Positions 2,971 through 6,035 of a stretch of 34,410 nucleotides of DNA are shown here, in pieces (the stretch's first letter is position 1; each line of letters opens with the position of its first letter). The translations under genes and the position numbers were made by a program. The DNA lies in the NCBI GenBank assembly GCA_021323955.1, contig JAJPKC010000395.1, forward strand, positions 1 to 34,410, in the 5' to 3' direction. The stretch comes from Oscillatoriales cyanobacterium Centralia_MAG_596 (GTDB lineage Bacteria; Cyanobacteriota; Cyanobacteriia; Leptolyngbyales; Leptolyngbyaceae). Under the pieces are notes generated by a model. It was not told the origin of the DNA. It was given only the letters and a program-made list of their open reading frames with translations, and made no database searches.

Positions 2971-3984
2971 TCAGAAAGCTTCGGTCATTTGGAAGTCTCC
3001 CAGAATTCTCACTTCTGGTTCCAGATGCAGTGACCAGTGCTGTTCCACCTGCTGTTGCACGTACCGAATCAAGCGAAAGATGTCACTGGCCAGCGCATTG
3101 CCACGGTTGAGAATGAAATTAGCATGGCGCTCGGCGATCTGGGCACCACCAATCTGGTAGCCCTTGAGTCCCGATTGCTCGATGAGCCAACCCGCTTTGT
3201 ACTCGGTTGGATTGCGAAACACGCTCCCACAACTGGGTAAGTGGTACGGCTGTGTCGTGCGGCGATGGTTCAGGTGCTGAGTGGTGCGATCAGTCAGCGT
3301 GGCAGGGTCAAACCCCGGGTTCAGTTGAAATGTTGCCTGCGTCACTAGCCAGTTCTTTCCCTGGAGAGCAGAGGTGCGATAGCAGTAGTGGAAATCCTGG
3401 GGTGTCATGATCTTGGTGGTGCCGTCGGGAAGGAGTACCTGTGCTTCCACCAGGTAGTCAGCCGTAGATCCGCCGTGGGCACCGGCATTCATCACGACCG
3501 CACCACCGACGGTGCCGGGAATACCGACCGCCCATTCGAGGCCTTGCCAGCCGTGTTCGGCTGCTTGCCAGGCCAGACGGGGGAGGGGTTCACCCGCACC
3601 AACTGTGACACGCCCGGTTTCTAGATCAAATTGACTGTGGCGCAGGCGGCGCGTACTGATGACAAGCCCAGATAAGCCGCGATCGCTAATCAGTAAATTC
3701 GATCCCTTACCCAGCAGCGTTACAGTCAGACCTTTCATTCGCGCCCACTCAAAACTGGCCTGAAGTTCATGCAGGTGTTTTGGGGCGACATACCATTCGG
3801 CAGGGCCACCAACCCGAAACGAGGTGAAGGCGGCCAGCGATACTTGCGGTTTAATCAAGCAGTCGGTTCCAGACAAGCGAACTGGTTGAACAACTTCCTG
3901 ACAGATGTCATAGGTGAGCGGTTCTAAGCTCAACCGGGGCGTCCCAGCGGTCACAACTTTAGGCGGATCGTACGAGAGAGTCAT
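2971..3984 (-). CDS. murB: UDP-N-acetylenolpyruvoylglucosamine reductase MurB
   Basis: MurB reduces UDP-GlcNAc-enolpyruvate to UDP-MurNAc using NADPH and FAD, the second committed step of peptidoglycan precursor synthesis in the cytosol. FAD-binding segments are [12 protein letters not shown] (about 55-66), [12 protein letters not shown] (about 92-103) and the long [19 protein letters not shown] (about 154-172). The catalytic serine is in SCGSVFRNP (Ser254) and the C-terminal catalytic glutamate in LEPEVR (Glu324). I start at the ATG at 3984 (337 residues); the frame stays open to a TTG at 4017 that would add 11 residues. No strong ribosome binding site favours either. It lies 78 bases behind murC, so the two are probably one operon. 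Confidence 0.94.
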
Positions 3985-4062
3985 GGTAATAAATCGTGTT
4001 TGTGACCCAACAAGCAAGCGCCAGTGGGTTCAATTGGTCTAATCCATAGTCACCGGAGGGCG

Positions 4063-5628
4063 TCAGGCGTGGTTACACCATTCCTGGGAGATGCCCTGTT
4101 CAATGCACTGATAAAACGCCATAACCTCAGGAATCAATTGGTTCAGATTCCCGGCTCCCAAAAATAGGGCAATGTCTCCCGGCATCAATAGTTCAGTTAA
4201 GCGCTTACTGACCGCCTGCAGTGACGGTTGGTAATCTACTTGAGGATGGTGGTTTGAGATTAAATTAGCAACCTGCTGACCACTGATTTTACCCAGGTTC
4301 GTTTCACCAGCACTGTAGATGTCACTGATAACGACGATATCGGCATCGCTGAACGATGTCGCAAAGTCTGATAAGAAGGTGAGCGTCCGGCTGTAGCGAT
4401 GGGGCTGAAAGACCGCAACGACACGGCGCTTTAGACCGGGGCGCGTATTACCAGCTTGCAGTCGTGCCGCAGCCAGCGTGGCCCGCACTTCACTGGGATG
4501 GTGGGCGTAATCGTCAACAAAGAGGATGCCATTGTACTCACCACGACGCTCAAATCGTCGCCGCGCTCCTTCAAAGGTCGCGATCGCCTGAGCAATGGTG
4601 GCAAAATCCAGTTTTAACAGTCGTCCCACGGCTACCGCTGCCAGGGCATTGCTGAGGTTGTGTTTACCCAGCAGTTTGACATTGAGCCGACCGAGAATAA
4701 CGCCCCGTTCCCAAACTCTGGCCGTTGTGCCGTCGGCTCGATAGGTGACACAGTCAACGGTATAGTCTGCTTCAGAATCAGCTGTGAGGCTATAGCTGAT
4801 TGTCGGCTGGAGCTGGTTTCGCACCGTTTCGCAGTCAATGCTGCCAATTAAGGTTTGGCAATTGCCGGCGAAGGTTTTGAAGATGTCAACGACTTCGTTG
4901 AGACTGCTGTAATGGTCGGGATGATCCAGCTCAATATTCGTGACGATGCCGATCTGAGCTGCCATTTTGACTAAAGAGCCATCAGACTCATCCGCTTCGG
5001 CGACGAGATAGCTTCCCTGCCCCAGACGCGCATTGCCTTCCCAGGCATTGACCTCGCCACCCACGACGATAGTGGGATCAAGTCCAGCCTGCAGCAGCAT
5101 GTAGCCAATTAAACTGCTGGTGGTTGTCTTACCGTGCGTTCCCGCTACAGCAATGCTGGCGTATTCATACATCAATCCAGCCAGGACGTCGGAGCGGTGA
5201 AAGATGGGACAGCCCAACTCCCGTGCAGCCATGTATTCTGGATTGGCTGGATGGATTGCAGTCGAGCAAATCACCTGGGGCAATTGGGTTACTGCTTGTT
5301 CTGCCAGTACTGGCCCAGTGCGCGATCGCTCAGTAACCGCTTTTGCTGGCACTACCCCTACGCTGGTAGATGCTAACTGTACAGACGCCGAGCTCGCAGA
5401 CGCAGAACTTACGGACGTTTGAAAATGCTCTAGATTACTAGAATCCTGGCTCCAAAAAATGTGAACCCCTTCTTCTTGAAGTCGTTGCGTAATATGACTA
5501 AGACGAAGATCAGATCCTGAAACAGGTAGCCCACGTCTCGCCAGAACGTAAGCAAGGGCTGACATTCCAATTCCACCGACGCCGATGAAATGAAACGGTC
5601 TACCGCTGAAATCGATCGAATTCAGCAT
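4063..5628 (-). CDS. murC: UDP-N-acetylmuramate--L-alanine ligase MurC
   Basis: MurC adds L-alanine to UDP-MurNAc with ATP, the first amino acid of the peptidoglycan stem, in the cytosol. The N-terminal Rossmann motif GVGGIGMSALA (about 16-26), the ATP P-loop GTHGKTTT (163-170), the EADESDGS segment and the middle-domain DDYAHHPSEV are all present. At 521 residues it is longer than usual. The excess is an Ala/Ser/Val-rich stretch at about residues 66-115, inserted before the conserved VICSTAIHPANPEY; it has no known motif and its DNA is internally repetitive. The start ATG is firm, since it follows a very strong ribosome binding site GTGTGAGGAGTTAAA. It heads the murC-murB(-ybaB) cluster. Confidence 0.95.
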   Translation of the reverse strand: MLNSIDFSGRPFHFIGVGGIGMSALAYVLARRGLPVSGSDLRLSHITQRLQEEGVHIFWSQDSSNLEHFQTSVSSASASSASVQLASTSVGVVPAKAVTERSRTGPVLAEQAVTQLPQVICSTAIHPANPEYMAARELGCPIFHRSDVLAGLMYEYASIAVAGTHGKTTTSSLIGYMLLQAGLDPTIVVGGEVNAWEGNARLGQGSYLVAEADESDGSLVKMAAQIGIVTNIELDHPDHYSSLNEVVDIFKTFAGNCQTLIGSIDCETVRNQLQPTISYSLTADSEADYTVDCVTYRADGTTARVWERGVILGRLNVKLLGKHNLSNALAAVAVGRLLKLDFATIAQAIATFEGARRRFERRGEYNGILFVDDYAHHPSEVRATLAAARLQAGNTRPGLKRRVVAVFQPHRYSRTLTFLSDFATSFSDADIVVISDIYSAGETNLGKISGQQVANLISNHHPQVDYQPSLQAVSKRLTELLMPGDIALFLGAGNLNQLIPEVMAFYQCIEQGISQEWCNHA

Positions 5629-6035
5629 TTTAACTCCTCACACACCACACCAATATCTCGCGCTATCATATCAAGGATTATCTTTTCGGGATACAGCTTC
5701 CCGATAAATCTGGTTGCTTGTTAGTCAAGGCTTTATGTTCAAGCCTGAAGGTTTATCGTCCTGAAAGTTATATCACTCCTTTTGTAATTTTGGGGCACAG
5801 ATTTGAGCAGAACGGCTGTGATTTTTACCTGAGCGATTCAGTCACCGAGTGAATCGTAGGGTAGGGCACTCCTCTCCTTATTCATCTAATACAGCCCAGA
5901 TTTCGAAACTTCGTAACTAACGCAGGTAAGATTTGAGAAAGGTTGGCTCATTTTGGTCTACTGGTTCTCCGATTGCGTGGCTGACATTAGGCTGGAGCGT
6001 ATTTACAACTGATCGTTTGGATACGGAATGTAGCT
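5629..6035. other. Divergent intergenic region murC / nadD
   Basis: This stretch of 407 bases separates murC (-) from nadD (+) and must hold both promoters. Next to murC it contains the strong ribosome binding site. I see a small hairpin CGGGA/TCCCG (5687-5703) and a weak inverted repeat GATTCA/TGAATC near 5840. No open frame with a ribosome binding site, no RNA gene and no mobile element is visible. Confidence 0.5.
5633..5643 (-). promoter_or_regulatory. murC ribosome binding site, exact complement of the Yfr1 small-RNA motif
   Basis: On the minus strand the bases before the murC ATG read GTGTGAGGAGT, followed by TAAA and ATG. The core GAGGAG is a strong Shine-Dalgarno with normal spacing. 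The whole 11-mer is also the exact reverse complement of ACUCCUCACAC, the conserved unpaired element of the cyanobacterial regulatory RNA Yfr1. The match is seen directly; regulation by Yfr1 is inferred. Confidence 0.6.

Follow-up and report, generated by a model that had tools for sequence, protein, structure and literature searches.

The window analysed here, the whole 34,410-nt stretch of contig JAJPKC010000395.1 from Oscillatoriales cyanobacterium Centralia_MAG_596, carries the peptidoglycan gene murC with murB 3' of it on the same strand, so that the two are possibly transcribed as one mRNA. The features of the murC start region, and the gene for the small RNA Yfr1 located elsewhere in the same genome (contig C124), are as follows:

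2971..4017, minus strand: murB, 3' of murC
4063..5628, minus strand: murC, UDP-N-acetylmuramate--L-alanine ligase, 521 aa (TIGR01082, 513.8 bits against a cut-off of 335.1)
5628-5626, minus strand: ATG start codon of murC
5634..5639, minus strand: Shine-Dalgarno sequence GAGGAG, within the Yfr1 site (from the sequence)
5643-5633, minus strand: contiguous 11-mer GTGTGAGGAGT, directly 5' of the murC ATG (from the sequence)
5650-5633 (-22 to -5), minus strand: predicted bipartite Yfr1 site GTGTGGTGTGTGAGGAGT (from duplex energy and sequence)
5665..5670, minus strand: TATGAT, likely -10 box (from the sequence and the leaders of relatives)
C124, 10784-10849: yfr1 (RF01116, 58.8 bits against a cut-off of 38)

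The position of TATGAT implies a murC leader of about 30 nt and would fix the transcription start accordingly; a promoter scan with the sigma-70 consensus found no promoter for this region. The -10-like box and the bases following it, including CGCGTG, read TATGATAGCGCGAG at 5670-5657 (minus strand). In many relatives the box and its adjoining bases read TATGATANCGCGTG, and several families conserve them. Within the window, no Rfam family scored as high as its cut-off.

Yfr1 is typically an abundant and nearly constitutive transcript. It is defined by two stem-loops separated by 16-20 unpaired nt that contain the ultraconserved ACUCCUCACAC (PMC2190773). The preliminary description of this DNA had proposed a search for yfr1 in the source genome (6.96 Mb in 704 contigs), and a single copy was detected there with RF01116. 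Its predicted fold consists of two stems separated by 16 unpaired bases, ACUCCUCACACCACAC, with ACUCCUCACAC inside. As that description had noticed, the 11-mer before murC is the exact complement of this core. The complementarity extends further: GTGTGGTGTGTGAGGAGT corresponds to the complement of the entire 16-nt linker with two surplus bases bulging out, and GTGTGG occupies 5650-5645 (minus strand). The computed duplex between the murC leader and Yfr1 of the same genome has 17 pairs, including an additional G-U pair at 5651, and a single 2-nt bulge in the mRNA strand, with an energy of -27.7 kcal/mol, and it covers the Shine-Dalgarno sequence. It counts against a regulatory role of Yfr1 that the Shine-Dalgarno sequence is partly paired in the minimum-energy structure predicted for 162 nt; in the centroid structure the leader is open.

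The simplest explanation would be an ordinary strong Shine-Dalgarno sequence that matches Yfr1 over 11 bases by chance. The bare 11-mer would fit this: the genome contains GTGTGAGGAGT five times (reversed control, 1), and it is not significant because this copy number is about what its length alone would give. The five places are yfr1 itself, murC, L004 (inside an open frame), L005 and L006 (a place of unclear nature). At L005 (1501-1520) the 11-mer stands directly 5' of the start of a fatty-acid-hydroxylase-like gene (PF04116), with a duplex energy of -24.5 kcal/mol. The bipartite pattern, in turn, was found in the source genome at yfr1, murC and two other places only. Among 391 start regions (471,193 bases, or roughly 7% of the genome, sampled from the window and 40 contig stretches, five of the sampled contigs having been picked for carrying yfr1 or a match), murC formed the strongest duplex with Yfr1, the mean being -11.6 with a standard deviation of 3.8. 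Ranks 2 and 3 went to a squalene/phytoene-synthase-like gene on contig C306 and to the L005 gene, both on contigs picked for their matches. The murC site is thus significant by its position and its longer match rather than by the 11-mer.

To see how far this layout extends, we assembled 156 murC leaders from 36 families and scored motifs in their last 50 bases. The leaders came from 30 relatives and from 130 of 366 matching genomes (30 loci and 100 fetched), three genomes being in both groups; of the resulting 157 genomes, G013 was left out, its murC start lying on another contig (L026). The leaders of family f2 and of G022 were kept despite uncertain start codons. The motif GTGTGG is present in 102 of the 156 leaders and in 24 of the 36 families, against about 23 leaders expected from dinucleotide shuffles; the corresponding figures are 118 against about 24 for GGTGTG and 89 against 1.5 for GTGTGGTGT. 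The GTGT flank, whose variability among related leaders had been named as an argument against Yfr1, is therefore conserved. The contiguous form GTGTGAGGAG was found in just 16 leaders (0.05 expected), which is to be counted against Yfr1, and the exact 11-mer was rejected as the conserved unit. Thus, the preliminary description was right that the 11-mer is present at murC, whereas as a signal it is neither rare nor conserved and is a special case of local occurrence. What is conserved is a larger, bipartite unit: it is composed of GTGTGGTGT and the Shine-Dalgarno sequence and is two bases longer than the perfect complement of the Yfr1 linker. The Shine-Dalgarno core varies among the leaders (GAGGAG, AAGGAG, GAGGAA, GAGGAT), while the upstream block persists. 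Two overlapping GTGTGG units were seen in 43 of the 102 leaders with the motif and three in one of them, in several families (e.g., L188, L156); where inspected, they were spaced in five-base steps, which gives several possible registers of pairing with Yfr1.

The distance from the last GTGTGG to the Shine-Dalgarno sequence is 5 nt in 81 of the 101 leaders measured (standard deviation 0.9), two more than in the perfect complement of Yfr1. The distance to the -10-like box is mostly 14 to 34 nt, with a maximum of 38 and a standard deviation of 5.8. These spacings bear on the idea that the block is a DNA element, that is, a transcription-factor or promoter-proximal site just 3' of the transcription start. 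In favour of such an element, a TATNAT box does lie upstream of the block in most leaders, and several families conserve it. However, it is the distance to the -10 box that varies between families while that to the Shine-Dalgarno sequence hardly does, and the block is in place in leaders of families f9, f11, f22 and f30, where absence of TATNAT is the commonest result. The near-fixed spacing on one side and the variable spacing on the other therefore tie the block to the start of translation rather than to the promoter, and we regard a DNA element as very improbable.

Energy calculations with the canonical Yfr1 gave -20 or better for 123 of the 156 murC leaders, with at least one such leader in 28 of the 36 families. 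The same threshold was reached by 8.5% of 1,560 shuffled leaders, by 2 of 63 further genes from the loci of the 30 relatives and by 1 of 71 usable murC loci (out of 74) from outside the photosynthetic cyanobacteria, a set that includes a few non-photosynthetic cyanobacterial relatives. Since a general Mur-ligase patch was one of the two peptide patterns used in the contig scan behind this last control, that scan mainly hit other phyla; it also gave six cyanobacterial loci (L037-L042), which were read but are not among the 156. The proportion of shuffles shows that the composition of G/T-rich leaders alone produces fairly strong energies, a point against Yfr1. With the strict pattern GTGTGGTGTNNRAGGAGN{3,10}ATG we obtained 26 matches in 25 of the 145 genomes of the class and none with the reversed control; 120 genomes, including families with looser versions of the leader, have no match to a pattern of this strictness. 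All of the matches except one open into murC, and the abundance of equally long matches before unrelated genes that had been envisaged as a refutation was found neither here nor in the source genome. The bipartite layout is nearly specific for murC. Shuffles, energy controls and the strict-pattern scan together reject chance for the bipartite site, and given its length, its presence in two thirds of the families and its near-exclusive association with murC, a fortuitous match to a plain Shine-Dalgarno sequence is hardly credible, even though the contiguous 11-mer on its own would fit one.

The remaining strict match belongs to the C306 gene of the source genome mentioned above, a member of the squalene/phytoene-synthase family (PF00494; L269, 671-1492, minus strand) with the bipartite leader GTGTGGTGTAAGAGGAG at C306:3697-3723. 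As a second conserved target it is no more than a lead: the GTGTGGTG block is preserved within the genus, with no clear conservation outside.

Control of murC by Yfr1 is already known from Nostoc sp. PCC 7120, where Yfr1 represses murC (alr5065) through the ribosome-binding region in an E. coli reporter system (Brenes-Alvarez et al., 2020, PMC6974561). In that work more than 90% of the reporter fluorescence was lost with Yfr1, a CCUC-to-AAAA mutation of Yfr1 strongly weakened the repression and depletion of Yfr1 in Nostoc raised the murC mRNA (PMC6974561). The compensatory test for murC was not clean, which we count against the pairing: with Yfr1_UG the wild-type and the mutated leader did not differ significantly (PMC6974561). 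The pairing over the Shine-Dalgarno sequence suggested in the preliminary description is therefore supported, and being the published Nostoc mechanism it is not new. Nostoc and the source genome are alike in the sRNA family, the target gene and the ribosome-binding region, while they differ in the kind of evidence: repression was shown in one heterocystous strain, and here a site layout is read from the sequences of 36 families. The target prediction of the Nostoc study covered ten heterocystous genomes (PMC6974561), and our searches of the open-access literature, supplementary files aside, turned up no paper on whether the murC site is conserved outside heterocystous strains. New here are the bipartite layout, with an excess of two bases that hardly varies, its link to the Shine-Dalgarno sequence, its occurrence in many cyanobacterial families and its near-specificity for murC.

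Another peptidoglycan gene, mraY, is the second such target detailed in Nostoc; in Anabaena PCC 7120 the site in mraY (all4316) lies at -23 to -6 (PMC8566892). This site and the murC site described here both comprise 18 nt over the ribosome-binding region at approximately the same place. They differ in that the gene is another one and that the mraY leaders of the relatives mostly have a looser, G/T-rich layout. Duplexes of -20 or better were obtained for mraY in 24 of 26 readable relatives (4 of the 30 loci, L385-L414, were left out for frame problems), although choosing the best start among several candidates favours low energies here. The mraY leader of G027 contains the exact 11-mer and gives -32.4. 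The porin mRNAs targeted by Yfr1 in Prochlorococcus MED4 (cited in PMC6778093, PMC6974561) resemble murC in that the ACUCCUCACAC core pairs near the start of envelope genes. Unlike the source genome, the murC leaders of f2, probably a picocyanobacterial family to judge from genome sizes and Yfr1 sequence, have no site (GTGTGG in 0 of 5, with uncertain start assignments), and the words murC and peptidoglycan are absent from the main text of the MED4 targetome paper (PMC6778093).

We compared the state of the leader with that of Yfr1 itself. A Yfr1 match was present in 75 of 80 genomes, and for 71 of these the sequence was obtained, each with a murC leader. Where the linker ACACCACAC was intact, GTGTGG was found in 43 of 58 leaders, and where it had diverged, in 2 of 13 (Fisher p = 1.4e-4, with no correction for kinship). 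The murC site is missing from picocyanobacteria-like genomes and from some further lineages, partly alongside a changed linker. Divergence of the linker together with lack of GTGTGG in the scored leader was observed in genomes of families f2, f5, f23, f24 and f34; in G022 of f5 the scored start is probably wrong, and GTGTGG is present before a likely start further upstream. One genome each in f20 and f30 combines a diverged linker with GTGTGG. In genus g50, G119 has no Rfam match for Yfr1; the use of this genus as a natural control without Yfr1 was dropped because its congeners G274 and G258 have a canonical yfr1 in a pattern search.

These data also bear on the possibility that the GTGTGGTGT block serves to enhance translation or to bind a protein that recognises RNA, its complementarity to Yfr1 being secondary. 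Its fixed position relative to the Shine-Dalgarno sequence is what such an element would have, the two extra bases are not required by pairing alone, and 15 of the 58 genomes with an intact linker (families f14, f17, f22, f26, f28, f29 and f31) lack GTGTGG, which speaks against Yfr1. On the other hand, loss of the block tends to accompany divergence of the linker, the mraY leaders too are G/T-rich and form strong Yfr1 duplexes, and Yfr1 mutants alter the murC reporter in E. coli, that is, without cyanobacterial proteins (PMC6974561). We thus consider an enhancer or protein site unlikely, if less so than the other alternatives.

The explanation we prefer, with a probability of about 0.85, is that Yfr1 blocks murC translation in the source organism in the same way as in Nostoc, via a leader site overlapping the Shine-Dalgarno sequence. 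The single-stranded linker ACUCCUCACACCACAC would pair with GUGUGGUG-UG-UGAGGAGU of the murC mRNA and leave the two bases UG bulged; the duplex would block binding of the 30S subunit and lead to less MurC synthesis. The same repression is to be expected in the source organism.

More tentatively, and at somewhat less than even odds, the partnership of murC with Yfr1 may be ancient and, outside the picocyanobacteria, nearly universal. The leader would then be an inbuilt antisense to all 16 nt of the linker, with a two-base bulge that is strictly maintained and functional, and such permanent pairing to an essential gene may be one reason for the frozen motif. If so, the bulge might, for example, keep the duplex reversible or beyond the reach of RNase III with the Shine-Dalgarno sequence still covered. 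It was proposed that the Yfr1 motif may be frozen through targeting a conserved element in other RNAs (PMC2190773). The murC leader is a conserved element of this kind, found in 24 of the 36 families, nearly fixed in layout and nearly confined to one gene. A finding from a single heterocystous strain thereby becomes a prediction across cyanobacteria that is testable in strains that are easy to handle. The bulge of two bases poses a concrete structural question. A site layout kept in so many families may help to explain why Yfr1 hardly changes.
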